Positions 21,176 to 39,002 of a DNA stretch of 39,002 bases are shown here, in pieces (within the stretch, counting starts at the first letter, position 1; each line of letters starts with the position of its first letter). Source of the DNA: a virus. The stretch covers positions 1-39,002 of the IMG/VR virus record IMGVR_UViG_3300035670_000578; one strand, written 5' to 3'. The notes beneath the pieces are model-generated. The model was not told where the DNA came from and searched no databases. It saw only the letters and a program-made list of their open reading frames with translations. The translations under genes were made by a program, and so were the position numbers.

Positions 21176-22440
21176 TATAACGGCAACCTATAAAGACTTA
21201 AAACTCTACGTACTTGTGGGGGAAACCCATCTAAACTTAAATCTTGAGTAGTGCTATCCTCTCCTTGAAGTCTCACAGTCTTAGCACCTTCTCTACCTTT
21301 ATATAGTATCTTAATCATTTCTAATGCAGCTAATTTTATATCTGCAGGTACTGAGTCATATCCTCCATTATAAATAACTTTTACCCCATTAGTATAGTTT
21401 AATGACTTTCTAGGATTGAAGAAACCTAATTTTGGTGTTCCACTGCCTAATCCTGTATCAAAAGTAATTTCTCCAGTATCTTTATACCATATATAGTCAT
21501 TTACTTTTCTTGAGAAATCTTCAATAGAAGTCTTATCTTGACCTTCGTTAAAGTGAAGTAATAATTTAGTGTCTTCGTCGGAAGACAATGGGTTAATGTA
21601 GCTAGTAAAGTTAGATGAATATCTATCTATCCAAGAAATTCGTAGTTCATCTAATTGACCGTTAAAATCTCTGCTAGGAGATTGATTAATAGCACCAATC
21701 TGTAGAGTGCTAGTAAGGGTTGGTAAAGAGTTAGCGGATACTAAGGTGCTACCACTCTGAGTACCGTTTTTAAATAGTTTTAAATCAGAATCGCTTTTAA
21801 CTACAGCAACATGAGTAAATGTATTGGCAGTTAGGGTATCTCCAGAGATAAATGTTGTTTCAACACCCCCTTCTACGCTTTTAAAATATAGTCCATCAGA
21901 GTTACTATACCCTAACTCCCAATAATTAGAAGAATCATCACTTCTAGATACTAATGATGCATCTGCTAAATCTTTAGATCTTACATATAGTTCTATTGTA
22001 AAAGGATCCCCTCCAAAATTAAAATCATTTGAAGAAGGAATAGATAAGTAAGAGCCGTTACCATCTAATGTTAAGCTAGAAGTACCAAATTTTTTTACTC
22101 GATTAGTAGTCTTAGCATTACCGATAGTGTTTACCGTATGAGATACGCCTTCAACTTCTAGTTGCTGCCCAAACGCTCCTGGGCCTCCTAGTTGTTGATA
22201 GGTTTTACCATTATAGTAAGCAACCTCAGATACGGCATTAATAGGAGGGTTCTTAATAAATACTGAAGCGACTCCGCCGTTGTAATACTCTGTATATGTG
22301 TTAGATTTTAATACTCTACCACAATAAGAATCTATTAGACTAGATACGTAAGAGTTTATAGAAGATAATCTATCATCCTCTGAATCGTTATCTAGCTTAA
22401 TCTTTAAAAACTCTTTTATTTCTAATAGTGTGACCAGCAT
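21175..22440 (-). CDS. Head-tail connector (HK97 gp6-like) with inserted LamG/lectin-like domain
   Basis: Residues 1-100 look like the start of HK97 gp6-like adaptor proteins: a helical repeat (LLEIKEFLKI, then DDRLSSINSYVSSLIDSYCGR) and a strand region 'LKSNTYTEYYNGG'. Residues about 350-421 look like the end of the same fold (VKVIYNGGYDSVPADIKLAALEMIKILYK). Between them, residues about 115-290 form a concanavalin A-like/LamG-type domain, with 'SLTLDGNGSYLSIPSSNDFNF', then 'FTIELYVR', 'FTHVAVVKSDSDLKLFKNGT' and 'FNGQLDELRIS'. The connector part docks under the portal; the inserted domain would project outside at the neck and could bind sugars. AGGAGG lies five bases before the ATG at 22440. 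The gene follows a hairpin after the capsid gene. Confidence 0.85.
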   Translation of the reverse strand: MLVTLLEIKEFLKIKLDNDSEDDRLSSINSYVSSLIDSYCGRVLKSNTYTEYYNGGVASVFIKNPPINAVSEVAYYNGKTYQQLGGPGAFGQQLEVEGVSHTVNTIGNAKTTNRVKKFGTSSLTLDGNGSYLSIPSSNDFNFGGDPFTIELYVRSKDLADASLVSRSDDSSNYWELGYSNSDGLYFKSVEGGVETTFISGDTLTANTFTHVAVVKSDSDLKLFKNGTQSGSTLVSANSLPTLTSTLQIGAINQSPSRDFNGQLDELRISWIDRYSSNFTSYINPLSSDEDTKLLLHFNEGQDKTSIEDFSRKVNDYIWYKDTGEITFDTGLGSGTPKLGFFNPRKSLNYTNGVKVIYNGGYDSVPADIKLAALEMIKILYKGREGAKTVRLQGEDSTTQDLSLDGFPPQVRRVLSLYRLPL

Positions 22441-22517: not shown

Positions 22518-25172
22518 TTATGCGCCGCTTACTCCGCTTAGGATGTTTAGAGCATATGCGTAAGTAGAGCTTAGAGCTGCACTAGACTCAGTAGTTAGAG
22601 CCTTCATGTCGAAACGAGTAGACATGTACATTGCAGTTACTTGACGCTCTGGAAGATATTCGCTCTCTACTTCCATTGCACGACGCTCACCGATTAAGAA
22701 TCCAGGCTTATATAGCATAGTTGCTAGAACGCGGTTATTTGCAGTGCTAGAAACAGTGTCCATAAATTCAGAGATATATAGCGGAATGCCATAGATCGCA
22801 CCTAGAGATCCTGTTAGGTAAGTAGCTTGTGCGCCGAACTTATCTACAGTTTGGAAATCGCTTTCAGTTACGAATGCGTTATACCCTTCTACAGATGTTA
22901 GAAGTACTAGGTTTTCACCTAGAGATAGACCGTACTTACCCATTGCAGCACGTGCGCTTGCAACAGTAGCAGCATTTGCCTTAGCAGTATTTGCTGCAGT
23001 ACCAGTTAGTCCAGTACCTCTCCATAGGTTTAGAGCAGCTACAGCACCTGCGTGGTTAACAATACCCTTGATGGGAGATGCTACACCACCGATTCCAGAA
23101 GTAGAACCTGCAGATAGAGACTCAGTAGCGTCGAAGCCAGTTAGAGTACCAGTACCACGAAGAAGTACTTTATCAGTGAAACGTGCTAGACGACGAGTTG
23201 CAGCAGAGCGTAGGAAATCTACTAGAGGAAGAATAGTATCTTCTTCTTCATCTTTTGCAATGTGAGTCTTAACCATGAACTTATGAGGTGTTAGCTCAAC
23301 GCTCTTTAGAACGTGCTGGTTAGAAGTTGGTACAGAGCTGTTAGTATCAGTTGTATAAGTACCATTCTGGAACTGAGCGATTGCATCGTCAGTATCTTCG
23401 CTTGCTACTGGAACAGAGAATGCCTTAGCATTTACTTCGATACGGTTGAATAGAGGAGCAACAACAAGTTGTTGTCTCATTTCTTCGTATACGTTAGTGC
23501 TGAATGCGTTTTCGAACGCTTCAACGCTACCACCAGTTACAACGTCCTTCATACGGAAACCGTACTTAGTGTCTAGTGGGTTCTTGCGTAGAGCCTTAGA
23601 TAGGAAATATGCATTAGATAGGTCCTTCTGAGAGAACTGAGAGTGTCTACGAGTGCTCTCTTGGTAATGCATCTTGCTTGTAGTAAGCGAATCAATCTGC
23701 TCACGGTAAGCTTTCATTTGGCCTCTTAGTTCAGCTAGTTCTTCAGCTAAACGACCATTTTCATAGTCTTCATTTCCAGCCTTGATTTTTGCCTCAGACT
23801 GTTCCATGATTTTTGCACCAGTCTTTTCGACTAGCTCTGCTACTCTTGGCTCAGAAACGTGAGCAGAAACTTTTTTCTCCTCAACTGCTGGAGCTGTAGC
23901 TTGTGTATTAACAGTGATGGTATCACCAATGTCCTGTTCTGCCATCTCTTTATTCTCCTTATTTTCGGTATAATAACCGTTTATTTTTAATGCGAAATTT
24001 CTATCTTCTTCTTCAGGAAGTTCGATAAGAGCTTTAATAGTATTAACAAATCTCTGAGCTAAGCTATAATGGGTGTCACTCCAAGAATCTAGAGTCATGC
24101 TCTTTAAATTCATCAAGTTATTCAGAGTTTGCTGGTGTTGATCAGTGGTTGTTTTAGATTTTAGAGTAAATAAATCTAATTCAGATGCCTTTACTAAATC
24201 ATTAAATTGACTTCTGATCTCTTTTCTATCTCCATCAGTTAATGACTTTGATGTTTGTTGTTCGATTAATAAAATATCGAATTTAGTATTTAGATCCCAA
24301 GTATTGACTACAGATAGGTTTTGTGCATCAATCTTGATAGTATTATCGCTTGAAACCCCGTTAATGTCAACCTCTTTAAATATGAAATATGGGGATTCGG
24401 CTGTCGCAATTTTTTTAATTTTATAGCGATTGCCCTTTAAACGCACGTGGTCACCATTATTTAAACTTGCGGTTTCTGCGCTTAACATGTTGTAGAAAGG
24501 AATAGGAGTGTTAGGATCAGTTTCCACAAACTCTTCTTCTACCTCTTTTTCCGAAGTTTCTTCTACTACAGACTTTTCTTCTACAGCTTCTAAGGACTTT
24601 TCTGCAGTTTCTTCTACAGCAGCTTTTTCTTCTACAACTACAGGTTCTTCCTCAGAGATAAATTGCTTTTTAAACTCTTCGTAACTAGCATCATCTTCAA
24701 AACTCTTTTTAATACTGAATAGAGATTCTTGATTAGCAGGAACACTAACAACACTAATTTCTAGTAGTTCAAGGTCTTTAATGTAGAAAGTATCAGAAGT
24801 GCGATCATAGTCTGCATCTTTTACTCTAAAACCTACGCTAAAGCTCTTAAGAGCTCCGTCTTTGATTAGAGTCTGTACTCCATGTAGGGTTTCTGCGGCA
24901 TCAGATACTGCGCCTTCTACAAAGATACCTTTTTTATCTACTCTAATAGATTCTGCTCTACCAATAGGCTTAGAATGGTCATGTTGGTATAGTAAAACTG
25001 GATTCTTTCTATAGTTTTCAATACCTTTTGCCCAAGCTTCTGGAGTTACAATGTCTCCAGATCTATCTTTAGTAGAAGTATTAGCATATCCTGCAATTCT
25101 AAAAGACTTTTTAGACGAGGCTGCTTTAATTTCTATATTATCGCTATGGATATAAAATTTTTTATCAGTCAT
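22518..25172 (-). CDS. Prohead protease fused to HK97-type major capsid protein
   Basis: An 884-residue frame with two known modules. Residues 1-155 are an S78/U35-type prohead protease: GYANT...DRSGDIV, then YQHDHSKPIGR (candidate catalytic His64 or His66), LKSFSVGF (candidate Ser112) and LELLEISVVSVPAN. Residues about 155-215 are acidic and repetitive (EE/VEE/EKS). Residues about 215-400 form a domain I do not recognise (starts TPIPFYNML). From Met410 the sequence is a capsid protein: a coiled-coil delta-like region (about 430-500), then FNRIEVNAKAFSVPV, TPHKFMVKTHIAKD and YGIPLYISE typical of the HK97 fold. A strong internal ribosome site precedes Met410, so free capsid protein (475 residues) is probably also made. 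The ATG overlaps the portal stop by eight bases. Confidence 0.9.
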   Translation of the reverse strand: MTDKKFYIHSDNIEIKAASSKKSFRIAGYANTSTKDRSGDIVTPEAWAKGIENYRKNPVLLYQHDHSKPIGRAESIRVDKKGIFVEGAVSDAAETLHGVQTLIKDGALKSFSVGFRVKDADYDRTSDTFYIKDLELLEISVVSVPANQESLFSIKKSFEDDASYEEFKKQFISEEEPVVVEEKAAVEETAEKSLEAVEEKSVVEETSEKEVEEEFVETDPNTPIPFYNMLSAETASLNNGDHVRLKGNRYKIKKIATAESPYFIFKEVDINGVSSDNTIKIDAQNLSVVNTWDLNTKFDILLIEQQTSKSLTDGDRKEIRSQFNDLVKASELDLFTLKSKTTTDQHQQTLNNLMNLKSMTLDSWSDTHYSLAQRFVNTIKALIELPEEEDRNFALKINGYYTENKENKEMAEQDIGDTITVNTQATAPAVEEKKVSAHVSEPRVAELVEKTGAKIMEQSEAKIKAGNEDYENGRLAEELAELRGQMKAYREQIDSLTTSKMHYQESTRRHSQFSQKDLSNAYFLSKALRKNPLDTKYGFRMKDVVTGGSVEAFENAFSTNVYEEMRQQLVVAPLFNRIEVNAKAFSVPVASEDTDDAIAQFQNGTYTTDTNSSVPTSNQHVLKSVELTPHKFMVKTHIAKDEEEDTILPLVDFLRSAATRRLARFTDKVLLRGTGTLTGFDATESLSAGSTSGIGGVASPIKGIVNHAGAVAALNLWRGTGLTGTAANTAKANAATVASARAAMGKYGLSLGENLVLLTSVEGYNAFVTESDFQTVDKFGAQATYLTGSLGAIYGIPLYISEFMDTVSSTANNRVLATMLYKPGFLIGERRAMEVESEYLPERQVTAMYMSTRFDMKALTTESSAALSSTYAYALNILSGVSGA
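23943..23960 (-). promoter_or_regulatory. Internal ribosome binding site and start for stand-alone capsid protein
   Basis: Inside the fused gene the minus strand reads AAGGAG (23960-23955), nine bases, then ATG (23945-23943), in frame at residue 410. The product M-A-E-Q-D-I-G-D would be a 475-residue capsid protein with its delta-like coiled coil, close to the size of a normal HK97-type capsid precursor. The site falls exactly at the boundary between the unknown linker domain and the capsid module. Confidence 0.8.
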
Positions 25173-26912: not shown

Positions 26913-28181
26913 TTACGCATATATTCCTACCGCCGACGCTTTAGAATGCGAATAAATAGCATATCTTAAAGCATCACAGCAGTGCGAAGTCCAATCATGT
27001 AAAGGCTTAGCCTTTTCACCCTTAGTATTCCATCTATAACCGCTAACACTAGCATAGGTGCGTTCAGCGTTCTCGATATCAAAGAGTATTTGTTCATTCT
27101 CTACTAGTACTTGAATAAAGCTAATACCATCATTAACTGATTTTACTGCATTTTCACAGAAAATATCATAGTCGTAGGCTAAATCAGCTTTAGTTTGCGC
27201 AGCAGCAGAGTCGATGTAGATATTTTCTATCTGCCAATGCTCTGCCATCTCTTTTATAACTTCAGCATGAGATGACGTAGTGCCTTCTGCGGCCACATAC
27301 TCATCTACCACAAAAAAGTTTGTTCCATCTGTTGCGACGACAACAAAGGCAGTGTCGTCTCTGAATCCAATATCAAGACCACCAATAAATGTATATCTAG
27401 AATCGCCAGGTTCAATATACTTTTTAGTATCAATAAGATGAACTGAGTCATCTACTTTATAAATCTGACCTTCGAAGCTTACCCAATCGCAATAATATTC
27501 TTGCTGGAAGATAGTTGGAGGGAGAGTACGTTTTGCCTCTTCAATATCAGACTCTTTAAGAGCAGGATTAACATGCCAAGGGTACAAGCCAGATCCCCAA
27601 TCTGGGTAATTTTGATCTTCTCCACGACAATAATAGTTATAAAGATAGTTTTGCTTACCACGAGGAGTAGAAATAAATAGAGCTCTAGACCCTTCATACG
27701 TAGATAGCGCTGGACGCAAGTCTCTAGTAAAGTATTCATCATCCGGGATAATGGCAGCTTCGTCTACAATGAGGAGGTGTGCTGCACGACCAACTAAGCT
27801 TTCTCTGTTATTAGCTGATAAAAGTCTAAAAGTACTATCGTTTACGAGGCGTACAACTCTATCTTTTAAGTTAAGGCGCTTAGTTTCAATTCCAAAAGCT
27901 TGAATAAGCTCAGTAGTGTAGTCCCAAATAATAGAAGATAGATTATAGTTAGGCGCTACAACAACTACCTGCTGATTAGGCTCTAGTAGCTTAGCAAGCG
28001 CTAGCACAGATGCGGCACTAGACTTTCCTGTTCTTCGTGCCGATATATGTACCCAGAATCTATGTTCTTCTAATCCTTCAAGCATAGCAACTTGACTAGG
28101 ATTAAACTCAGTGAATCCAAATTTAGCAGGAAGTCTTGCAGCTAATTTCTCTACAGGTACTTTAAAATAGGGTGAAGACAT
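26913..28181 (-). CDS. terL: Terminase large subunit
   Basis: A 422-residue packaging motor protein. The ATPase part has Walker A SARRTGKS (47-54), Walker B LLIVDEAA (136-143, with Asp140-Glu141) and the coupling motif FISTPRG (169-175). The nuclease part has the three acidic positions of the RNase H-like fold: Asp270 (GLDIGFRDD), Asp324 (IYIDSAA) and Asp403 (CCDALRYA). It drives DNA into the prohead through the portal and cuts the concatemer. The start is by TAATG overlap with the S74 fibre gene. I see no classic small terminase next to it; the 310-residue protein at 30465-31397 is one candidate by position only. Confidence 0.95.
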   Translation of the reverse strand: MSSPYFKVPVEKLAARLPAKFGFTEFNPSQVAMLEGLEEHRFWVHISARRTGKSSAASVLALAKLLEPNQQVVVVAPNYNLSSIIWDYTTELIQAFGIETKRLNLKDRVVRLVNDSTFRLLSANNRESLVGRAAHLLIVDEAAIIPDDEYFTRDLRPALSTYEGSRALFISTPRGKQNYLYNYYCRGEDQNYPDWGSGLYPWHVNPALKESDIEEAKRTLPPTIFQQEYYCDWVSFEGQIYKVDDSVHLIDTKKYIEPGDSRYTFIGGLDIGFRDDTAFVVVATDGTNFFVVDEYVAAEGTTSSHAEVIKEMAEHWQIENIYIDSAAAQTKADLAYDYDIFCENAVKSVNDGISFIQVLVENEQILFDIENAERTYASVSGYRWNTKGEKAKPLHDWTSHCCDALRYAIYSHSKASAVGIYA

Positions 28182-30133
28182 TATTTACTTTCTAACTTAT
28201 TTACTTTTTCTGTTAATTCTTGTATAGCTTTGATTAAAGGAGGAATTAATCTAGTGTATTGAATAGAAGTACTGCCCTCAGATACTACTTCTGGTATAAC
28301 ATTAGCTACTTCTTCTGCAATTAAGCCATATTCATGACTCTTAGAAGCTATTTTATCATACTCTACAGGACGTAGTAACATTAATTTACTTAATTGATCA
28401 TCTAAAGGAGTAATATTTTCTTTTAATCGTACAGACGAAGATTCTGTTAAGGTTCCACCAACTTCAAAATCACTAGAAACTTTCGCATTTCCACTCACAA
28501 AAAACTGTTCTGTTTGTGCGACGTTTGAGTTTACTACTACTTTACCGACATAATAAGCTCTGCCAGTATCCTCAGTCCACACTCCTCCGCTAAAGGAGTT
28601 AAGGTTACTTTGAACTGTATCAATTAATCCGTTAAGAGTAACATACGTATTATAGTCATTAGATCTAGCCGTTAAAACAGTAGATCCATCATTAGAATAA
28701 GCACTTAATAAGGTGTTATAGTCATTTGCACGAGCTGTGAGCAGTGTGGCACCGTCATTAGCTGCCAAAGTAGATATAGCAGAAGTTAAGTTGCTTTGAA
28801 CAGTATTAACACGTCCATTTAAAGTGGTATACGTATTATATGTATTGGCTACTCCAGTAGCAACATTGTCTTGTACAATATTAATACGAGTATTTAGAGT
28901 AGTATAAGTAGTATAATCATTTGCACGAGCGCTTAAAAGAGTTATACCATCATTCGCAAGAACATTTACAGAGTTAACAGTGGCCACAGTAGCTACTAGA
29001 TTACCAATAAAATTATTTGCTTGAATACTAGCTAGAGTAAAAGAACTATGACTGGTATTTATGTAAGGAGAGACATCAGGTTCAAGAGTATACCCATCAA
29101 ATACCTTCCAATAACCATCAGTAGCATCACGGAAGAATCCTGCATGTTGGTAAACGCCATCATTATAATTACCTGCAAAACCTAAGTCAGGATTTGTAAC
29201 TGTTGAATTAGCGTTAAGATATATCATATTATCTTCAATTGCTAACTCAGTTACATTTATAGATACAACATTACCTGTAACAGTTAAGTTACCCTCTATA
29301 GTTACGCTACCTCCTACTGTTAATCCATTATCTATAGTCAAGTCAACAAAATGACCTGAAGACCAAGTATATAAAGTATTACCAACATATCCAGTCCCAT
29401 CATTGAGAGGTACTATGGCAGTAGAGGATACTCCTAATCCAATATTATCTTGAATAGAGTTTATACGTGTATTTAAAGTAGTATAAGTATTATAATCATT
29501 AGCGCTTAAAGTAGTATAAGTGCTATAATCGTTAGCAGCTGAATCTGGTAAGGCAGAAACATTATTTTGAACAGTATTAATACTTCCGCTAAGAGTAGTA
29601 TAAGTATTAAAAAGATTGGCTACACTAGCAGTTACATTATTTTGTACGGTATTAATATTTGTATTAGCACCTTCAAGTCCTGTAATTAAATCTGCCACAC
29701 TAGTATTTGAGCCAGCATCTATAGCATCTATACGAGCGTCTAAAGATACCCAGGTATTATATACGTTAGCTGTAACTGTTGTTATACTGTTGCTAAGAGT
29801 GCTATAAGTAGCATAGTCATTAGCTGCTGAATCAGGTAATGCAGTTAAGTTACTTTGAACAGTATCAATAGCTGTATTAACTGTTTTCCACGTATTATAT
29901 ACATTTTCAGTTGTTATAGCGTAAGATACATTTATAGAATTAGTAAGAGTTGCATAAGTATTATAGTCATTAGCATTCACCCAAACATTAGATGAATCCC
30001 CTGTTCCCGCTCCGACAGCAGCACCATTAAAATACAGATTACCGCCTACATTATATAGGCGGTTAGTATTATCTGCTAAATCAGAAATCTCTGGTATATA
30101 AGTTATACTATCTATAGAGCGTTTTAAATACAT
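28181..30133 (-). CDS. Tail fibre with C-terminal S74 intramolecular chaperone domain
   Basis: A 650-residue protein. The first 230 residues and residues about 400-520 consist of repeats of the type NDYNTYTTLNTRINxVQDNV, likely a trimeric coiled or beta shaft. The middle (about 245-385) has 'LTVGGSVTIEGNLTVTGNVVSI' and 'IYLNANST...DLGFAGNYNDG', a beta module common in phage fibres. The last 85 residues are an S74 domain: SSVRLKENI, then HEYGLIAEEVANVIPEVV, YTRLIPPLIKAIQEL and a final coiled coil. Such domains fold the trimer and then cut themselves off at a serine by the Ser/Lys pair, here within SSSVRLK. The gene lies directly in front of the large terminase, not near the other tail-tip genes. 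Start and end are both TAATG junctions. Confidence 0.88.
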   Translation of the reverse strand: MYLKRSIDSITYIPEISDLADNTNRLYNVGGNLYFNGAAVGAGTGDSSNVWVNANDYNTYATLTNSINVSYAITTENVYNTWKTVNTAIDTVQSNLTALPDSAANDYATYSTLSNSITTVTANVYNTWVSLDARIDAIDAGSNTSVADLITGLEGANTNINTVQNNVTASVANLFNTYTTLSGSINTVQNNVSALPDSAANDYSTYTTLSANDYNTYTTLNTRINSIQDNIGLGVSSTAIVPLNDGTGYVGNTLYTWSSGHFVDLTIDNGLTVGGSVTIEGNLTVTGNVVSINVTELAIEDNMIYLNANSTVTNPDLGFAGNYNDGVYQHAGFFRDATDGYWKVFDGYTLEPDVSPYINTSHSSFTLASIQANNFIGNLVATVATVNSVNVLANDGITLLSARANDYTTYTTLNTRINIVQDNVATGVANTYNTYTTLNGRVNTVQSNLTSAISTLAANDGATLLTARANDYNTLLSAYSNDGSTVLTARSNDYNTYVTLNGLIDTVQSNLNSFSGGVWTEDTGRAYYVGKVVVNSNVAQTEQFFVSGNAKVSSDFEVGGTLTESSSVRLKENITPLDDQLSKLMLLRPVEYDKIASKSHEYGLIAEEVANVIPEVVSEGSTSIQYTRLIPPLIKAIQELTEKVNKLESK

Positions 30134-30464: not shown

Positions 30465-31397
30465 TTATTCAGTAGGCGGTTCAGTTTCCGGGGCGCCTAT
30501 CATTTTAGTATATGTAATCTCTTCTAGAGGTGTAGAATCAAATCCCATTAAGTTCATTCTAACTTGATCTACTTTAGCTACGTCGATCAGCTCATTAGCT
30601 ACTTGATCAACAAAATCATGTAAGCCACTTACATCCCAGGACTGTTGAGTAGCTTCGTGCTGTACGTATTCACGAATTTTAATCATCATCTTCATCGGAT
30701 TTACACCGATCTGCTCAAGATATTCTTGCTCACCCTTAGAAATAGATCCAGATTGACGAACGTCACGAATACATTGAGTTACACTTCTCTTAATATGTGC
30801 TTTAGATTCAGCTTTCTCAATCTCAAGCTCACTAAACTCTTTTGTCTTACTCTTTAACTGTTCAAATAAACTGTTAAGAGCTAGAATATCTTTCATAGCG
30901 CCTTCAACATAGCTCATACCCTCAGCCAGCTTCTCTTGATGCTCAGCAAGACGAACTTTTAAATCTACTTCTGTCCAATAGTCAAGTTCTTGTGGGTTAG
31001 CCAGTTGTTCTTCGATCTTTCTAATTTTAACTTCAGTTTTAATCTGATTCCACTTAGCCTCATTTAGAGCTTGACGCTTACGAGCTACCTCTGCAGCAAT
31101 TTGTCTCATATTTTTATGAGGATCTAAATAAGAGAGATTTAAATGTTTCCACATCCACTGAGTATGGCTGCGATTCCAGATATTCTGTAAATCTTTAGTA
31201 TTAGCAATAGCTAAGTCTACTTTTTGAGCATTCTCTACTAGGCTATTACCTCCAAAAGATTCAGTTTTTGCTACTGTGCCTTTTCCAAATACTTTAGCTA
31301 AGGGCACAGTAAACTCAGAGCCATCTTTTACTACTAGATCGTTTCTAATCTCTTCAAAAATAGCAAGCTCATTTGCACGTAATGTTTCTTCTGTCAT
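30465..31397 (-). CDS. Unknown coiled-coil protein (310 residues)
   Basis: I do not recognise this protein. It is charged and mostly helical. Residues about 105-245 carry long heptad-like stretches (VARKRQALNEAKWNQIK, VRLAEHQEKLAEGMSYVEGA, FSELEIEKAESKAH). The N-terminus (residues 1-60) has a more globular look (DLVVKDGSEFTVPLAKVFGKG). It lies two genes before the large terminase. Its size, charge and helical nature would fit an unusual small terminase or a virion scaffold-like protein, but I see no DNA-binding helix-turn-helix that would decide it. The end leaves 11 bases before the next start. Confidence 0.8.
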   Translation of the reverse strand: MTEETLRANELAIFEEIRNDLVVKDGSEFTVPLAKVFGKGTVAKTESFGGNSLVENAQKVDLAIANTKDLQNIWNRSHTQWMWKHLNLSYLDPHKNMRQIAAEVARKRQALNEAKWNQIKTEVKIRKIEEQLANPQELDYWTEVDLKVRLAEHQEKLAEGMSYVEGAMKDILALNSLFEQLKSKTKEFSELEIEKAESKAHIKRSVTQCIRDVRQSGSISKGEQEYLEQIGVNPMKMMIKIREYVQHEATQQSWDVSGLHDFVDQVANELIDVAKVDQVRMNLMGFDSTPLEEITYTKMIGAPETEPPTE

Positions 31398-31407
31398 ATT
31401 CTAGCCT

Positions 31408-31539
31408 TTACACTATATCTTCTACTAATTCTTTTAAGGCGTTGAAGGCTTCTCTATCTTGCATAAGCAATTTACGAAGTACTTCTGTTAGCTCTGTTTT
31501 AGATAGTTCTTCTATCTTCTTAGCGAGCATAAGCTCCAT
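31408..31539 (-). CDS. Small 43-residue helical protein
   Basis: An ATG at 31539 overlaps the stop of the 109-residue gene (TAATG) and opens a 43-residue frame that ends with TAA at 31408, ten bases before the next start. The product (begins MELMLAKKIEELSKTELTEV, ends ALKELVEDIV) is a single amphipathic, charged helix or helical pair. The tight coupling on both sides, without it a 140-base gap in a region with no other gaps, is the main reason to call it real. Function unknown. Confidence 0.7.
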   Translation of the reverse strand: MELMLAKKIEELSKTELTEVLRKLLMQDREAFNALKELVEDIV

Positions 31540-31868
31540 TATGAATTCTCCGCCACAAAATTATCATACCAAGCTTCTACTAACGCTCTTACTTCAGCAT
31601 CGGTCATAGTGACACTTCCACTGCCAGGAGCCTCTTCGTTCATTTTTTGCATTGGAGTAGCGGCGTGGATAGTAAGCTGACGTTGTACTAAGTCTTCTTT
31701 AGTTAGTACGGTAAGAGAGTCAGGAACATAAAAGTCTCTAGAGTCTTTTACCCAACCAATGTAGGTCTCAGTAGCGGCGTCATACCAATGACCTCTGTTA
31801 TCAATGAAACCAGGAATAAAACGCTTTCCTTTATCATCAATGTTAAACATATATTCTACAACAGCCAT
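31539..31868 (-). CDS. Unknown protein (109 residues)
   Basis: A 109-residue acidic protein, not recognised. The first half has short aromatic strands (VEYMFNIDDKGKRF, GHWYDAATETYIGWVKDSRDFYVP), the second half is helical (LTKEDLVQRQLTIHAA, TDAEVRALVEAWYDNFV). It stands between the 2OG oxygenase and the 43-residue gene. AAAGGAG lies eight bases before the ATG at 31868. A virion or chaperone role is possible, but nothing in the sequence shows it. Confidence 0.75.
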   Translation of the reverse strand: MAVVEYMFNIDDKGKRFIPGFIDNRGHWYDAATETYIGWVKDSRDFYVPDSLTVLTKEDLVQRQLTIHAATPMQKMNEEAPGSGSVTMTDAEVRALVEAWYDNFVAENS

Positions 31869-31880
31869 TTGTTGTCTCCT

Positions 31881-32435
31881 TTATATTTGTATGTTATTAT
31901 TTATAACTATTCTTGGACTTAATGAGGGAGTAGAAGAGGCATGAAGTATAGAGCCATCGAATATTATTGCTCTGCCACGCTTTGGAGGAATTCTCTCTGC
32001 TATTCTACCACCTTCAAACATTATAGTATCACCATCTGTGTTATTAACGTAGTAAAGCAATACATGGTGAGGTGTGTTATAATCTACATGAGGATTATCA
32101 ATACGCTCAAGTTCGGTTAGCCTATCATTTGCTAGCGTCAGCCTAGCTCTGCTTCTAAATATTTTATCTGCCGATACATTTGGTAGCTCTGCTTTATAAA
32201 GAGCCTCAAGCAACATAGGTAACACATAATTATACTCTGGAGTATTAATTGTTTTTGGTTCTATATTGTTAAAATCGTGTCGTAGAAAAAAGTTAAAAGA
32301 AAAACCTGGGATACTTCTTTGTGCTGTACTTCCTAAAGATATATCTGGAACAAAAGTCCAAGGTAAACTAACACAGCGCTCAAATATCATCTCAGAGTAT
32401 CGAGGGCTTATAAAATTATCAATAACTCTTATCAT
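31881..32435 (-). CDS. 2-oxoglutarate/Fe(II)-dependent oxygenase, single domain
   Basis: A 184-residue protein with the full metal and cosubstrate set of prolyl-4-hydroxylase-like oxygenases: His116-x-Asp118 (PHVDYN), a following strand HHVLLYYVN, GGRIAERIPPKRGRAIIFDG, the distal His165 (ILHASS) and Arg175 (SPRIVIN) for 2-oxoglutarate. These enzymes hydroxylate side chains, sugars, bases or small molecules with O2 and 2-oxoglutarate. Its substrate is unknown. The start overlaps the methyltransferase stop by ATGA, which argues for joint action with the methyltransferase and the tandem oxygenase. It ends 12 bases before the 109-residue gene. Confidence 0.88.
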   Translation of the reverse strand: MIRVIDNFISPRYSEMIFERCVSLPWTFVPDISLGSTAQRSIPGFSFNFFLRHDFNNIEPKTINTPEYNYVLPMLLEALYKAELPNVSADKIFRSRARLTLANDRLTELERIDNPHVDYNTPHHVLLYYVNNTDGDTIMFEGGRIAERIPPKRGRAIIFDGSILHASSTPSLSPRIVINNNIQI

Positions 32436-33160
32436 CTGAATCTCATAGCGGTTAATGGGTACGGAAATACATCAACAGGTTGAATATATATGCAAGCAGT
32501 ACTATTCTGTGCCCTATTTTTAGATTCTACTACGTGTTGTAGAGTAAACTTAGAGCTAGATACTAACTGCTGTATCTCTTCTTTATTTTGCATAGAAGCA
32601 GGAACTTTACCATTATTAAACATATCAACAATAGCTTCTAAAGTATGATAGGAAGAATAGTATGTAGAAGCAGAATCAAACATAATAATGGATGTTTCAG
32701 ACATCTTAGGTAGTAGCTCAGAGAGTAAGTTTAGTATATCTGCTGGTCCGTGTGAAAAATCAGAAAATACTATGTCAATCTTTTCAGGAAGCCCTACAGC
32801 AGAAATATCACGATGTATAAATTTAATATACTGGTTGAGCTCAAATTTGTCAATCAAATTGTTAACATATTCCAAGTATTGCTCACGGAACATAGGGCCC
32901 ATTTGCGGTTTTGCTTGTTTTAAGTGATTCCACTCTGCACCGTTGTCAACTGTATAAATTTGTCCCGATCCATTTTCTTCAAGAGCTAGACCTGCCCAAA
33001 GAGCAATAGAGCCAAGCCCAGTGCCTAGCTCTACTACTGTTTCAGGTTTTCTCATTTTTATAAGTGAGTATAAAAATATAGAAAAGTCTTCTGTTCCGTA
33101 AATTGAACCTATACTATCCGTATACTGTTTAATAAAAAATAGTTTTTCATACTTATTCAT
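32432..33160 (-). CDS. Class I SAM-dependent methyltransferase-like protein
   Basis: A 242-residue protein. Motif I is VVELGTGLGS (residues 42-51), motif II is IYTVDNG (68-74) with Asp72 for the ribose, and KIDIVFSDFSHGPADI (about 126-142) corresponds to motif IV. The C-terminal part is unusual and holds an aromatic run (ASTYYSSYHTLEAIVDMF). There is no N6-adenine (DPPY) or cytosine-5 (PCQ) motif, so it is probably not a DNA base methyltransferase; an O- or N-methyltransferase acting on a sugar or protein is more likely. It lies between the two oxygenase genes with TAATG at its start and ATGA at its end. Confidence 0.82.
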   Translation of the reverse strand: MNKYEKLFFIKQYTDSIGSIYGTEDFSIFLYSLIKMRKPETVVELGTGLGSIALWAGLALEENGSGQIYTVDNGAEWNHLKQAKPQMGPMFREQYLEYVNNLIDKFELNQYIKFIHRDISAVGLPEKIDIVFSDFSHGPADILNLLSELLPKMSETSIIMFDSASTYYSSYHTLEAIVDMFNNGKVPASMQNKEEIQQLVSSSKFTLQHVVESKNRAQNSTACIYIQPVDVFPYPLTAMRFR

Positions 33161-34434
33161 TATTTAAACCTAGGACCATTAATCCAGATAACAATAACCC
33201 AACGCTCTCCAGCAGTAATAGGAGTCACTTGATGAAGAAGATAACTTGGGAACATATTGACGCACCCTTGTTCTTTTACAGTATTAATAATATTACCATT
33301 ATTATTAATAAGTAAATCACCGCCTTGATACTCTCTAGGATTCGTTAGAGGTACAGATACAGAAATTTTTCTAGTAGCACTGCTACCATTTCCACAATCT
33401 ACATGCCAATCATAGTGCCCGTGTTCCACATCTTTATAGTGAAGTAGCTGAAGTGCATGAGTAATACCATACAGATCATACTTATAATACTCGGCATTAG
33501 CTTTACCAACTGCTGCTGCAATCTTCTTAAAAATCCAAGCAGTTTCTTCACTATATTCAATATTATAAGTATCTACTGCACGAACAGAAGGGTCATATTT
33601 ACTATTATCTCCATCTCCGACTGTAGATTTAATTGGATATAGCTTGTCGCTTAGACGACGTACGGCCTCACACTCAGCGGGGCTAAATGTATATTCAGGA
33701 TTAAATCCAGAGTAGTAGCTAATAGCACCTGGGAATACATCGTCAGATGTTTTAATCATTAATCCGTGCTCAATAATCTTAGAGCGTAAAGGTGCTAAAT
33801 CTTGAGTCTGCGGTAAAACAGGTTTCTCTAGTACCAAGGGTTCTTGTTTTTTAGCAACTTGTTTATCTACTCCTAGAGAGGCGCGCTTATCATTAGCCCA
33901 ACTTGCGTGAGGGCCGTTAGCATCAACAAAATGAAAGAATACCTGTACTTGCCATTCACCTTTATAAGGAGGACGCCAGTGCCATAGCTCATTGCCATGA
34001 TACATAACAATATCGCCTATATTAATCTCCACAGACTGTCCGACGACATCATCTCGTTCCCCCGTGAAAAAGATAGGCCAAATACCAGACCCTGGATGGA
34101 ACCCTAGAGTCATAGTTCCTGAAATCTCACAAGCTTCACGATCAATATGACGGACTAGTGTTTCGCCAGGTCTATAGATACGAGCGTACGTATAAGTAGG
34201 AAGAAGATTAATCCCTAGCTGAGAAGATAAAGGCTTAGCTAGGGCCTGTAGAAGATTGTCTAGAACAGGATCTCCATATACACTATCAGATAAGGGACAT
34301 TGTTCATCTTTAGTGAGATTACCCTCTTCATATAGCTTAAACATATAGTTAGTTAAATCTTCACAAGTAGCTCTAGGAACTACGTTGCTTAGATAAATAT
34401 ACTTTTTTTCTTTAAAGTACTGTGCAGGCGTCAT
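33160..34434 (-). CDS. Tandem (two-domain) 2OG-Fe(II) oxygenase
   Basis: From the ATG at 34434 this is a 424-residue protein with two oxygenase domains. Domain 1 (about 1-172) has His96-x-Asp98 (VRHIDRE), GDIVMYHGNELWHWR with the distal histidine (His146 or His152) and a final FFHFVD strand. Domain 2 (about 235-424) has His344-x-Asp346 (YDWHVDCG), RKISVSVPLTNPREYQGGDLLI, His401 (LLHQVTPI) and Arg411 (GERWVIVIW), the PKHD-type hydroxylase pattern. A linker near 175-225 is rich in Lys and Pro. I prefer 34434 to a TTG at 34470: AGAGG lies seven bases upstream, and its ATGA overlaps the sulfotransferase stop. Both active sites look intact; domain 1 lacks an obvious arginine after the distal histidine, so I am less sure of it. 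Confidence 0.9.
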   Translation of the reverse strand: MTPAQYFKEKKYIYLSNVVPRATCEDLTNYMFKLYEEGNLTKDEQCPLSDSVYGDPVLDNLLQALAKPLSSQLGINLLPTYTYARIYRPGETLVRHIDREACEISGTMTLGFHPGSGIWPIFFTGERDDVVGQSVEINIGDIVMYHGNELWHWRPPYKGEWQVQVFFHFVDANGPHASWANDKRASLGVDKQVAKKQEPLVLEKPVLPQTQDLAPLRSKIIEHGLMIKTSDDVFPGAISYYSGFNPEYTFSPAECEAVRRLSDKLYPIKSTVGDGDNSKYDPSVRAVDTYNIEYSEETAWIFKKIAAAVGKANAEYYKYDLYGITHALQLLHYKDVEHGHYDWHVDCGNGSSATRKISVSVPLTNPREYQGGDLLINNNGNIINTVKEQGCVNMFPSYLLHQVTPITAGERWVIVIWINGPRFK

Positions 34435-35261
34435 TGTAAAACCTCTGGGTAGAATGAACGATAAAACCAACTATTATCTTTGATAACTTGCTGGTGAAAT
34501 TTTTCAGAAAGAACGCGAGTAGGCTCTTTCCATGGTTGTAAAACTGGGTTAGTTCGATGGTCTGTTTTTTCTCTAAAATAAGCATTATCATGCTCAAACA
34601 TTGCAGACTGATTAATATGAGCTAGATCGTGTTTATAAGTAGGAAGCTGTAAGAACTCATATATACGTTGTAACATATAGTGTGGATCTCTGAGAACATC
34701 TTCATATCTAATAAACTTTACACGAGAAGAATCACGCTTAAACAAATCAATATATTTAGGTATCTCATGCCGAAGAGTAGAAGAAAAAGCATTAGACTCT
34801 TTGAAATGATAGTGTAGTTTTTCTTCTTCGCTCATTGATGCGTATAGAGTGTGATCGTCACTGAAAGTATGTAGCGCTTTTATGCGAGAGTTTACACGGT
34901 CAAAGCTCTCTACAATATCTCGTAGATCACGAACAGTTACTAGAATCTTAGACTGAGGGAATAAATGATGAAGACCACTCCACTGACGAGCTTTTGAAAT
35001 TACTACAGGCTTTGAGGTTAAGCCTTCATACCATCCTCGAGTAGCACCAAGCGCCATACCATATACTGCATCATCAGCTTGTTCGCAGCTCATTGCTTGA
35101 AAAGCTTCAGTATATCTAGATTTAACTAAAATTTGCTCTTGAAGAATATGTGGAAAAGGGTCTGTTGCAGTAGTAAAGATAGATGGGTTTTGCTGTAGAA
35201 TATTCATCAGGACGGTAGATCCTGTGCGCGGAAGACCTCCGCAAAAATGTAGATAGTTCAT
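34431..35261 (-). CDS. Sulfotransferase (PAPS-dependent)
   Basis: A 276-residue protein. The 5'-phosphosulfate loop is GLPRTGSTVL (residues 9-18), and the 3'-phosphate site is ILVTVRDLRDIVESF, with Arg111 and Ser119 in the expected places. The C-terminal part has VKFIRYEDVLRDP and LPTYKHDL, as in the carbohydrate and tyrosylprotein sulfotransferase superfamily. These enzymes move sulfate from PAPS to a hydroxyl or amine of a sugar, protein or small molecule. It lies between the repeat adhesins and the tandem oxygenase and ends by ATGA overlap with the latter. Placement inside an adhesin/tail module suggests that the acceptor may be a virion protein or a surface sugar; this is an inference. 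Confidence 0.88.
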   Translation of the reverse strand: MNYLHFCGGLPRTGSTVLMNILQQNPSIFTTATDPFPHILQEQILVKSRYTEAFQAMSCEQADDAVYGMALGATRGWYEGLTSKPVVISKARQWSGLHHLFPQSKILVTVRDLRDIVESFDRVNSRIKALHTFSDDHTLYASMSEEEKLHYHFKESNAFSSTLRHEIPKYIDLFKRDSSRVKFIRYEDVLRDPHYMLQRIYEFLQLPTYKHDLAHINQSAMFEHDNAYFREKTDHRTNPVLQPWKEPTRVLSEKFHQQVIKDNSWFYRSFYPEVLQ

Positions 35262-35271
35262 ATATTACCTA

Positions 35272-36243
35272 TTAGTATTGTTGTCCTGCTGGACGAGCTC
35301 TTGCTTGGGTTAGATCTCCTACATCAGATGCGTTTACGTCTGCTGCGAATGGAAACTTTTCTATCACGTTAGTATTAGGACTTCCTCCAGAGGTATAACC
35401 AGATAACCAACTAGATTGCCCCGCACGTAAAGATCTAATTATAGTTAAATCTCCTACATCTGTGGCGTTTGCATCTGTGGCAAAAGAAAACTTATCTATT
35501 TCGTTTGTATCTACACTACCGAGCAATCTACCTCCAGATGCGTACCCATAAGTACTAGAGTTTTGAGGGGCTGTCCAGGCTTTAACATTATATAAGTTTC
35601 CTACATCAGTCGCGTTTGCATTTGTAGAAAAAGGAAATTTGTCTATAGTGTCAGTTAAAGTAGGTGTGAGCCCTCCAGAGGTATAACCGGAAATGCTAGA
35701 GCTTTGACCAGAAACCCCGCTTCTAGCCTGGGATAAATCTCCTACATCAGTAGAACTTGCATCGATAGAAAATGGAAATTTATCTATAGTATTACGTATT
35801 AAAGGAGTAGGAAGAGTCCCAGAGTCTCCCCCAGAGGTGTATCCACTTGTATCCGAGCTTTGACCTGCAGGAGTGTACCTAGCTTGTGTTAAATCACCCA
35901 CGTCTGTAGCATTACCGTCTGTAGAGAAAGAAAATTTATAAATCTCATTTCTAGAAGGAGGAATATTACCACCAGAGGTATACCCATGAGTAGCACTAGA
36001 ATGCCCTGCAAGTTCACGTAATGCAGATAATAAGTCTCCTACATCAGACGCATTTCCGTCTGCAGTAAAAGAAAATTTATCTATTGTATTTACGTTAACA
36101 CTAGTAAGCCCTCCAGAGGTATAACCGTTTATTGAACCTTGGTAAGAGTATTGAGGGGTCCAACTAAAATTATTACCATTAAACTGAAGAGTAGCATTTT
36201 TATATCTATCTTCTGGAGGGTCTATATTTGTTACATCAATCAT
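35272..36243 (-). CDS. Repeat adhesin A (six ~47-residue 'GYTSGG' repeats)
   Basis: A 323-residue protein. After about 30 residues (NIDPPEDRYKNATLQFNG) it consists of six units of about 47 residues: GYTSGG, a variable loop, N.IDKF.F..DANATDVGDL, then a short helix or turn ending AGQSS. The pattern is like that of kelch/beta-propeller proteins, and such repeats occur as fibre or adhesin domains in marine phages. The last unit stops at AGQQY, at the same repeat phase as in the two related genes. The variable loops between GYTSGG and IDKF differ most between units. A binding role at the tail or fibre tip is likely. It starts by ATGA overlap with the second repeat gene and precedes the sulfotransferase. 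Confidence 0.82.
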   Translation of the reverse strand: MIDVTNIDPPEDRYKNATLQFNGNNFSWTPQYSYQGSINGYTSGGLTSVNVNTIDKFSFTADGNASDVGDLLSALRELAGHSSATHGYTSGGNIPPSRNEIYKFSFSTDGNATDVGDLTQARYTPAGQSSDTSGYTSGGDSGTLPTPLIRNTIDKFPFSIDASSTDVGDLSQARSGVSGQSSSISGYTSGGLTPTLTDTIDKFPFSTNANATDVGNLYNVKAWTAPQNSSTYGYASGGRLLGSVDTNEIDKFSFATDANATDVGDLTIIRSLRAGQSSWLSGYTSGGSPNTNVIEKFPFAADVNASDVGDLTQARARPAGQQY

Positions 36244-37090
36244 ATTTGTTGTCCTGCAGCAGCCTGTCTTGCTTGAGTCAAGTTACCTACAAAAGTTGCA
36301 TTTCCATCTGCTGAGAAAGAAAACTTATCTATAGAAGCAGAATTAGCAGGGGAGGGAGTAACACCGCCTGCAGTATATCCAGAATCCGTACTAGACTGTC
36401 CTGCTCCCGCAGATCTAGTTTGATTTAAGCCTCCTACATCAGTAGCATTAGAGTCAGAAGCAAACGGAAACTTATCAATATTATTTACTGCAGCAGTTGT
36501 AAAACCTCCAGCAGTATATCCGTGAGTAGTGCTAGACTGTCCCGCAGTAGTACGTCTAGCTACTGTTAAGTCTCCTACATCGCTTGCACTACTATCAGAG
36601 GCAAAAGGAAACTTATCTATAACGTTAGTTACAGATGGAAAATACCCCCCAGAAGTATAGCCATGTGTATCGCTTGACTGTCCTGCAGCGCCAGCACGTG
36701 AGGTGGATAGACTACCTATAGAAGTTGCGCTCCCATCTGCAGCAAAAGTAAATTTATCTATGCGACTAGAGAAAAATCCAGTACTTCCACCAGATGTGTA
36801 CCCATAGTAGTCACTTGCTTGACCGGCAGGATTATACCTAGCCTGTGTTAAGTCTCCTACGTCTGTAGCGTTCGCATTTGTTGCAAATGGAAACTTATCT
36901 ATGACGTTAGAGGCTGTTGGAGTAGCCCCGCCAGACGTGTATCCTGAAGTAGAACTAGACTGCCCTGCAGCTGCATTTCTAACTTGAGTTAAATCCCCTA
37001 CATCAGTAGCATTAGCATTAGTAGGGAAAGGAAACTTATCTATAGTATTAACTCTAGCTCCTGGGGCAGTACCTCCAGAAGCATAGCCAC
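35290..37090 (-). repeat. Block of about twelve ~141-base repeats in adhesin genes A and B
   Basis: Two adjacent genes each carry six units of about 47 codons, with a conserved DNA core coding for ATDVGDL and IDKFPF; a further set begins at 38664. The unit boundaries coincide with AGQSS/GYTSGG. The repeat array spans the junction of two genes except for the ~48-codon and ~30-codon N-terminal parts. Confidence 0.8.
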
Positions 37091-37232
37091 TAGTAGTACC
37101 TTGAAAAGTTACAAGTGGTTGTAGGGCAGAAAATGTTATTCTCTGCTCTAAACTATCCCATACTACGTAGGAATCTTGTGCTGGAACTTCTACAGTAGAT
37201 AAAAGAGTTATAGGTAATTTATTTAATGGCAT
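36240..37232 (-). CDS. Repeat adhesin B (six ~47-residue repeats)
   Basis: A 330-residue protein. The first 48 residues (LPITLLSTVEVPAQDSYVVW, then SLEQRITFSAL) resemble a small beta module that may attach it to the virion. Six repeats follow with GYTSGG or GYTAGG, N.IDKFPFATNANATDVGDLTQAR and AGQSS, ending at AGQQI. Units 3 and 6 diverge at the DVGDL part (SIGSLSTSR, FVGNLTQAR). The gene has its own promoter-like sequence at 37251-37278. The DNA of the repeat cores is similar enough between units and genes for unequal recombination to be plausible. Confidence 0.82.
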   Translation of the reverse strand: MPLNKLPITLLSTVEVPAQDSYVVWDSLEQRITFSALQPLVTFQGTTSGYASGGTAPGARVNTIDKFPFPTNANATDVGDLTQVRNAAAGQSSSTSGYTSGGATPTASNVIDKFPFATNANATDVGDLTQARYNPAGQASDYYGYTSGGSTGFFSSRIDKFTFAADGSATSIGSLSTSRAGAAGQSSDTHGYTSGGYFPSVTNVIDKFPFASDSSASDVGDLTVARRTTAGQSSTTHGYTAGGFTTAAVNNIDKFPFASDSNATDVGGLNQTRSAGAGQSSTDSGYTAGGVTPSPANSASIDKFSFSADGNATFVGNLTQARQAAAGQQI

Positions 37233-37563: not shown

Positions 37564-38664
37564 TCACCTCTTAATAGTAGGGTCCGACTCTGCGCCCCAC
37601 TTAATTATAACTGCGCCCGACTTGCCGTTAATACCGCTTCTAGTAGCGGAAAAGTATGCAACTGTAGACCCGGGAGCTCCCCATCCATAAGAGCCATCAG
37701 ATCCATCTCCGCCATTTCCAGCAGTATAGTCTATACCAGAAGCGCCATAATCGACAATGGTAGTAGTACCTCCAGCACCGGAAGAGCCTAGCCCAAAGAC
37801 CCCTACTCCACCTCCGTAACCGCCTACAGATTCAGAGGATCCATAAAAATAATACTCAGCACTGGAACCGCCGCCGCCTCCGCCGCCAGAACCGTTAGAT
37901 CCACTATTTCTTCCTCCAGCACCGCCATTACCAAAATAGCCCCCAGCACCACCGCCACCACCAGCATCCCAAGAAGTTTCATAGTACCCTGAACCACCAG
38001 AACCTCCTCCATCACCTACGTAAGAACCTCCAGTTGCAGCACTTGTTTGGCCCCCAGAACCGCCGTATCCTACTACAGTGCTGGTATTAGCAAAATAAGA
38101 AGCACCTCCCGGCCCTCCATTAACTCTAGCTGTATTTTGAGTACCAGAAGTACCCGCTATACCTCCAGCACCTACAACTACTGTATAAGAAGCGCCTGGA
38201 GTAACAGGAAAGTCTTTGATCCAGCCTAAGCCTCCTCCTCCGCCCCCACCGGCAGATTGCATAGTTCCGCTACTGAATCCTCTAGATATCTGACCTGCCC
38301 CACCTCCTCCGACAGCTACCACGGAAACTTTTGTGACTCCTGTTGGTGCAGTCCAAGAATATGTACCTGCAGTTGTATATAGAGCTTGCCCCATCATTTC
38401 TGGGGCTCGAATATATCTAACCTCTACTAGCATATCTTCACTATATGTAGACTTTAAGGTTAAAGTTTGGGAAGCAGTATTTACAGTATAGTCATTACTT
38501 GGTACAAGAAGTAGACCTCCTACTGATACTAGCGCGTTCGCTTGAGTAACATAATAAGAAAGAGTAAAGCTGTTAGAAGATGAATTAGCAGTAAAAGTCT
38601 CTGAATAGAATCCAGAGATAGGAGCGTTATTAGCTATTAAAGTATTAAGTAGTAGCTGTGCCAT
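37564..38664 (-). CDS. Glycine-rich tail adhesin
   Basis: A 366-residue protein. Residues 1-90 are the beta module shared with the 88-residue protein. The rest starts with a pattern TTAGTYSWTAPTGVTKVSVVAVGGGGAG, then runs of glycine interrupted by short variable segments, 'VTPGASYTVVVGAGG', and ends with GINGKSGAVIIKWG. Glycine-rich domains of this kind occur in phage adhesins, where glycine stretches pack as polyglycine II helices and the connecting loops bind the receptor. It stands in the adhesin cluster and starts by TAATG overlap with repeat adhesin C. The first residues (AQLLLNTLIANNAPIS) may be the attachment end. Confidence 0.82.
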   Translation of the reverse strand: MAQLLLNTLIANNAPISGFYSETFTANSSSNSFTLSYYVTQANALVSVGGLLLVPSNDYTVNTASQTLTLKSTYSEDMLVEVRYIRAPEMMGQALYTTAGTYSWTAPTGVTKVSVVAVGGGGAGQISRGFSSGTMQSAGGGGGGGLGWIKDFPVTPGASYTVVVGAGGIAGTSGTQNTARVNGGPGGASYFANTSTVVGYGGSGGQTSAATGGSYVGDGGGSGGSGYYETSWDAGGGGGAGGYFGNGGAGGRNSGSNGSGGGGGGGSSAEYYFYGSSESVGGYGGGVGVFGLGSSGAGGTTTIVDYGASGIDYTAGNGGDGSDGSYGWGAPGSTVAYFSATRSGINGKSGAVIIKWGAESDPTIKR

Positions 38665-39002
38665 TAAACTTGCTGCCCTGTTACGGCATTCCTAGCCTGT
38701 GTTAAGTCTCCTACATCTGTAGCGTTGGCATTAGTAGAAAAAGGAAACTTATCTATAACATTTGTGAGAGGTGGAGCAAAACCTCCAGAACTATAACCAC
38801 TGACCATAGAACTTTGTCCAGCAGGAGTTGATCTACCTTGAGTTAAATCTCCCACATCTGTAGCATTGCCATCAGCTGCAAAGGGAAACTTTTCAATAAT
38901 ATTATAATTGGTGGGAAATACTGAACCCCCAGAGTTATAACCATGAGAATCACTAGACTGTCCCGCACCAGAGTTTCTACCCACTGTTAGATCTCCTACA
39001 TC
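38664..39002 (-). CDS. Repeat adhesin C (partial; N-terminus beyond window)
   Basis: The frame is open to the end of the window (the first visible codons read D-V-G-D-L-T-V-G-R). It shows the end of one repeat, two complete repeats with GYNSGG/GYSSGG, IIEKFPF/VIDKFPF and NATDVGDLTQ, and stops at TGQQV in the same phase as the other two repeat adhesins. The true start lies beyond base 39002; a GTG at 38984 is inside a repeat and is not a likely start. It is probably a paralogue of repeat adhesins A and B. Confidence 0.82.
   Translation of the reverse strand, partial: DVGDLTVGRNSGAGQSSDSHGYNSGGSVFPTNYNIIEKFPFAADGNATDVGDLTQGRSTPAGQSSMVSGYSSGGFAPPLTNVIDKFPFSTNANATDVGDLTQARNAVTGQQV

Follow-up and report, generated by a model that had tools for sequence, protein, structure and literature searches.

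A mobile phage cassette of oxygenases and a sulfotransferase predicted to modify virion beta-propellers or fibres

The window analysed here is the entire 39,002-base IMG/VR virus record IMGVR_UViG_3300035670_000578. The genes examined are siphovirus late structural genes, all on the minus strand, and among them lies an island of four genes for a sulfotransferase, a two-domain 2-oxoglutarate (2OG)-Fe(II) oxygenase, an S-adenosylmethionine (SAM) methyltransferase and a single-domain 2OG oxygenase. On balance, we favour the reading that these genes belong to a mobile phage cassette for the predicted modification of the phage's own virion propellers or fibres, which would be assembled in modified form. 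Surface proteins are suggested as substrates because the nearest solved relatives of the oxygenase and the sulfotransferase act on proteins, and because unrelated propellers (RCC1, DUF5122) often stand in where the kelch type found in the window is missing. The genes of the cassette in the window are:

34431..35261, minus strand: sulfotransferase, 276 amino acids (aa); Pfam Sulfotransfer_3, with GLPRTGST and VRDLRDIVES motifs for binding 3'-phosphoadenosine 5'-phosphosulfate (PAPS)
33160..34434, minus strand: two-domain 2OG-Fe(II) oxygenase, 424 aa; N-domain phrog_2954, C-domain 2OG-FeII_Oxy_3
32432..33160, minus strand: SAM methyltransferase, 242 aa; Methyltransf_24, conserved motifs
31881..32435, minus strand: single-domain 2OG-Fe(II) oxygenase, 184 aa; phrog_274, invariant H116, D118, H165 and R175
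31539..31868, minus strand: p109, uncharacterised, 109 aa; travels with the cassette
30465..31397, minus strand: p310, uncharacterised, 310 aa; the most constant partner of the oxygenase that is neither enzyme nor propeller
35272..36243, minus strand: REP1, kelch-like beta-propeller, 323 aa; phrog_19111, directly upstream of the sulfotransferase
36240..37232, minus strand: REP2, kelch-like beta-propeller, 330 aa; assigned with AlphaFold2 (AF2) and Foldseek

In the model we propose, the tandem prolyl-hydroxylase-like oxygenase would hydroxylate a residue of an adjacently encoded structural protein, most likely the kelch-like propeller array and otherwise p310, p109 or a fibre. The sulfotransferase, which resembles the protein-tyrosine sulfotransferases (TPST), would act next on that or another side chain, as would the O-methyltransferase and the third oxygenase domain where these are present. 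The propellers would enter the virion in modified form, with possible effects on stability or, at the host surface, on binding or evasion. We infer the protein substrates, this order of steps and the effect.

Co-occurrence across viral contigs carries most of the argument. Contigs were scanned with the sulfotransferase, oxygenase, propeller, methyltransferase and p310, giving several hundred loci whose genes were called and then searched with iterated profiles. Counts are of clusters at 90% identity, and pattern-based scans and fragmentary contigs bias them both ways. Of 42 clusters with the window's type of tandem oxygenase (the module type), 40 have a propeller in the locus, 34 have p310 and 29 have the sulfotransferase. 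One of the two propeller-less clusters has propellers elsewhere on its contig, bringing the same-contig count to 41/42. The methyltransferase occurs in 13 clusters, always with p310 and in 12 cases with a propeller; the thirteenth is the same exceptional contig with propellers elsewhere. Propellers without the oxygenase were found in several records of up to 65 kb, which may be fragments. The dependence is one-way, as expected of an enzyme and its substrate: the enzymes need propellers, but propellers also occur alone.

The control was a sister family (L111-L155) that came from other phages in the same scan; its tandem 2OG oxygenases are 30-38% identical to the module type. Neither a propeller nor p310 was found in any of the 34 sister clusters (propeller in 40/42 vs 0/34 loci, Fisher 1e-19), and among loci of at least 9 kb the propeller counts were 35/36 and 0/21. 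At E 1e-4, none of the 88 proteins at the sister-family control loci matches a Pfam propeller family. A glycine-rich domain is carried by 23 of them, and for 34/40 sister oxygenases a glycine-rich protein is encoded no more than three genes away. Each subfamily of oxygenase thus goes with its own class of surface protein. The original prediction had held that gene sets varying independently of the adhesin genes would count against it; the enzymes do not vary in this way (same-contig propeller in 41/42 oxygenase clusters, against 0/34 in the sister family), but propellers do occur without the enzymes.

The sulfotransferase is more loosely tied, with a propeller in 27/37 clusters. Two of the others have propellers elsewhere on the same contig (L004, L016). 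An RCC1 propeller lies directly upstream of the sulfotransferase in six clusters (L032, L228-L232) and in the isolate S-SRM01, and a DUF5122 propeller holds this position in L218. The remaining propeller-less clusters are L033, which has glycine-rich and fibre neighbours, and L100, which is cut by the contig end. At a strict cut-off, a kelch-type propeller is directly upstream of the sulfotransferase in 22/38 clusters, compared to 7.0 expected from local density. Several distant sulfotransferases (~27-30%) adjoin fibre-like, S74 or YadA-like genes (L234, L235, L237, L242, L245). The distant relative in S-SCSM1 falls outside the pattern, lying among replication genes and away from tail genes.

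The core unit is thus the oxygenase, p310 and a propeller, with a frequent sulfotransferase and an optional methyltransferase and third oxygenase. The enzyme set recurs, but it is not an invariant unit of four genes, and p310 and p109 also belong to it. Oxygenase domains are present in 46-47 of the 52 p310 clusters and p109 in 39. Besides the window, with its siphovirus-type genes, the cassette occurs in contigs that carry neck genes of T4 type (L021), and two isolates have it, S-SKS1 (kelch type) and S-SRM01 (RCC1 type). Other surface proteins beside the cassette (L218 4591-6723, L211 3645-4931, L004 1093-7675) include a DUF5122 propeller, FG-GAP repeats and lactonase/SGL-like propellers. In L019 (8831-16136), the sulfotransferase is followed by about eleven genes of ~180-260 aa. 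Four of these were tested, yielding two GT25 glycosyltransferases and one FkbM methyltransferase; the row may extend the cassette towards glycosylation.

The four island genes are real and translationally coupled. The sequence gives an ATGA junction between the sulfotransferase and the two-domain oxygenase, TAATG between that oxygenase and the methyltransferase, and ATGA between the methyltransferase and the single-domain oxygenase, just as originally described. Pfam matches, motifs and folds also agree with the enzyme families that the original prediction had named, and the catalytic residues it had recognised are invariant among relatives in all four enzymes. All four genes are under strong purifying selection: dN/dS against relatives is 0.06-0.17 where dS is unsaturated, and these values are rough as dS is high.

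The likeliest start of the two-domain oxygenase is ATG 34434 (424 aa) and not the TTG 34470 of the open reading frame list. Its C-domain matches Pfam 2OG-FeII_Oxy_3 at 3.9e-14. The N-domain is not detected by Pfam, but it matches phrog_2954 at 2e-42, its HxD...H triad is invariant, and the AF2 model gives it a 2OG-domain fold. Across 25 relatives, H96, D98 and H152 of the N-domain and H344, D346, H401 and R411 of the C-domain are invariant; R154 or K158 is a candidate 2OG anchor of the N-domain. Profile matches are to PKHD/PiuC-type hydroxylases and prolyl 4-hydroxylases (P4H). The AF2 model has a predicted local distance difference test (pLDDT) score of 83, and its top Foldseek matches are OGFOD1, Tpa1, P4H and PHD2, with a whole-length template modelling (TM) score of ~0.3, which means that single domains match and that the domain arrangement is uncertain. 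By profile and modelled fold, the nearest relatives are protein prolyl hydroxylases (P4H/PHD/OGFOD1), and protein hydroxylation is the activity predicted here. OGFOD1 and Tpa1, prolyl hydroxylases of the ribosomal protein Rps23, share the tandem 2OG-type domains (Foldseek E ~1e-11) at an identity of only ~12%. To our knowledge, just one of their two domains is catalytic, whereas the phage protein keeps the iron triad in both.

The sulfotransferase matches Pfam Sulfotransfer_3 at 6.5e-17, and its best profile match in the Protein Data Bank (PDB) is protein-tyrosine sulfotransferase 1/2 (5e-9). Both PAPS motifs, the 5'-phosphosulfate-binding (5'-PSB) loop of GLPRTGST type (PRTGS-type) and the 3'-phosphate-binding (3'-PB) RDxRD...S, are present and conserved in 20 relatives. 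The likeness to TPST covers the PAPS-binding loop and the second half of the fold. Membership in that family was considered and rejected: the catalytic Glu of the GEETR segment is replaced by A, S, T or G in relatives. Unlike TPST1 and TPST2, the phage enzyme has no counterpart of the catalytic Glu and no N-terminal extension fit for a membrane anchor, and it carries an EHD motif of its own that, like the Tyr after it, is invariant.

The methyltransferase matches Pfam Methyltransf_24 at 1.9e-13, conserves LGTGxG among relatives and is weakly similar to O-methyltransferases (nearest PDB entry 3r3h, 0.002). The match of the single-domain oxygenase to Pfam 2OG-FeII_Oxy_3 (5.7e-5) is under the gathering score and a profile search of the PDB gave no match; its HxD...H...R residues H116, D118, H165 and R175 are invariant in nine relatives. 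Neither the methyltransferase nor p310 had a match in named phages. The PHROG labels of phrog_274 ("DNA endonuclease V") and phrog_2954 ("ferrochelatase") sit on these 2OG oxygenases. They conflict with the Pfam domain, the motifs and the fold, and are probably misnomers that have spread through cyanophage annotation.

The "repeat adhesins" of the original prediction are indeed surface-protein neighbours of the island, but the repeat protein is better described as a kelch beta-propeller. The AF2 model of REP2 (pLDDT 92, predicted TM score 0.87) has six four-stranded blades in a kelch fold, and Foldseek matches it to the kelch domains of KLHL12 and Keap1 and to the designed SAKe at a TM score of ~0.9 of the target. 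REP1 is 52% identical to REP2. No Pfam kelch family matches the REP proteins, and their profile found one kelch protein in the PDB (E 0.043), so they are kelch-like by modelled fold only. A search of viral models recovered the same fold in proteins of S-SKS1 and in jumbo-phage entries named "virion structural protein". Kelch and RCC1 proteins are present in purified phage particles, according to two reports (PMC5259590, PMC11370258). By likeness to CBB_552 and W70_237-239, the propellers of the window are putative virion proteins. The phages CBB, GAP32 and W70 (jumbo/Vequintavirinae virions) thus share propellers as virion components with the cassette phages; the accessible portions of that literature report no linked modifying enzymes, in contrast to the propellers here. 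For p109, no Pfam or PHROG match was found. A contig scan of 84,980 bacterial and archaeal genomes found no relative of p310, so it offers no prophage or host clue.

Several results weigh against modification of the phage's own proteins. Tyrosine sulfation is not implied, since the catalytic Glu of TPST has no conserved counterpart. The conserved proline of the propeller motif IDKFPF, which gives way mostly to Ser where it is replaced, was tried as a target residue and rejected, as it is no less conserved when the record lacks the oxygenase (83% vs 85%). Some p310/oxygenase loci (L139, L143, L295, L299) lack a propeller on the fragment and carry fibre genes of the usual kind. The 90%-identity clusters cannot be counted as fully separate lineages. 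Finally, some relatives have sugar genes next to the sulfotransferase.

These sugar genes are the basis of the main alternative, in which the enzymes alter a host surface sugar (lipopolysaccharide or exopolysaccharide), for example against superinfection or sticking of virions to debris, and the propellers adjoin them as binders of the same surface. The GT25 and FkbM genes after the sulfotransferase in L019, a gene for a short-chain dehydrogenase/reductase of GDP-mannose-dehydratase type in L005, a glycosyltransferase and a nucleotide-sugar epimerase in S-SRM01 and a CmcI-like methyltransferase in L217 all speak for it. However, the window holds no identified sugar gene of that sort, its enzyme genes are coupled to those of the late structural module, and the nearest relatives of the oxygenase and sulfotransferase act on proteins. 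The sugar genes of the relatives could equally glycosylate a virion protein; their place beside the cassette fits either glycosylated virion proteins or host-surface modification. We regard alteration of host sugars as unlikely, and as less likely than decoration of the phage's own proteins.

The island might also have no joint function, if variable late adhesin loci gather unrelated genes that are kept by linkage. Gene order and content do vary, the methyltransferase and third oxygenase are optional, and propellers also occur alone. This seems distinctly improbable given the near-absolute one-way dependence of the oxygenase, methyltransferase and p310 on propellers across virion types, the replacement by other propellers, the family-specific partner of the sister oxygenase and the strong purifying selection suggested by dN/dS. 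A metabolic or DNA role is the least credible explanation and would surprise us greatly. An earlier paper put forward roles in nitrogen metabolism or DNA repair for the 2OG oxygenases of cyanophages at large (PMC3037559), and tuning of 2-oxoglutarate and nitrogen, or DNA repair or modification, could be extended to the cassette; the S-SCSM1 sulfotransferase among replication genes would agree. Against this role stand the tandem active sites, the closeness of the folds to protein hydroxylases and the tight association with structural genes, and the "endonuclease V" and "ferrochelatase" names are contradicted as described above. The original prediction had held that close homology to nucleotide- or base-modifying enzymes would count against it; profile and fold comparison did not place the cassette enzymes close to any that modify DNA or nucleotides, the nearest solved relatives being prolyl hydroxylases and tyrosylprotein sulfotransferase.

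If modification of virion proteins is correct, it is tempting to extend it. More tentatively, the cassette may represent a widespread, horizontally moving phage pathway, the first in bacterial viruses, in which virion beta-propellers from several unrelated families are hydroxylated and then sulfated or methylated, with oxygenase subfamilies matched to their partners (kelch propellers or glycine-rich fibres). Mimivirus L230 is a collagen hydroxylase/glucosyltransferase, and the likeness lies in a viral hydroxylate-then-decorate route for fibre-like virion proteins, which in our case is a proposed one. L230 hydroxylates Lys and glucosylates collagen in a eukaryotic virus, whereas the window has no collagen and no identified glycosyltransferase, and has a sulfotransferase instead.

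The cyanophages S-SKS1, S-SRM01 and S-SCSM1 have the same enzyme families as the window. In S-SKS1 the sulfotransferase, oxygenases and kelch-type propellers occur together, and in S-SRM01 the sulfotransferase directly follows the RCC1 propeller. The 2OG oxygenases rank with the most frequent accessory genes of cyanophages, with as many as 24 in one genome, and are described as not specifically investigated (PMC9602691), and the function of phage sulfotransferases "remains unclear" (PMC10580990). As far as the passages found go, both are treated as separate auxiliary metabolic genes and the tie to propellers is unmentioned (PMC9602691, PMC10580990, PMC8557907). A search of open-licence papers, a scope outside which most subscription journals fall, found none on a sulfotransferase with an oxygenase and a tail fibre, none on hydroxyproline in phage virions, and none joining modifying enzymes to virion propellers. 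The tie to propellers and the protein-type folds make the role of phage sulfotransferases and 2OG oxygenases testable. If our reading is true, chemically modified receptor-binding surfaces would be a general feature of aquatic phages, and several probably wrong annotations ("endonuclease V", "ferrochelatase") would be explained.

The minus-strand late genes of the window include the propellers, glycine-rich and fibre genes, the four-gene island, p109, p310 and the S74 fibre. The same module holds the large terminase, portal, protease-capsid fusion, tail terminator, major tail protein, chaperones and a giant tape measure, in keeping with the late structural setting first described for the island. 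The other surface-protein genes are:

38664..39002, minus strand: third propeller gene, truncated by the end of the contig so that only its C-terminal part is present
37564..38664, minus strand: glycine-rich (Gly_rich_2) surface protein, 366 aa; PF21722, 2.8e-14
28181..30133, minus strand: tail-fibre protein with S74 endosialidase-type chaperone; PF13884, 4.6e-12

The tape-measure-like product of 2007-16964 (minus strand) is 4,985 aa long and has an endolysin-like region around residue 1450. Tape measures span ~1.5 angstrom per residue, so a protein of this length would correspond to a ~750 nm tail, which would rank with the longest. At 22518-25172 (minus strand), a head maturation protease and the major head protein share a single 884-aa frame, with phrog_80 at its N-end and phrog_267 at its C-end, apparently a fused protease-capsid gene. 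The product of 21175-22440 (minus strand) joins residues ~100-312, common to baseplate-wedge and virion structural proteins, to a C-terminal part that is head-tail adaptor-like.

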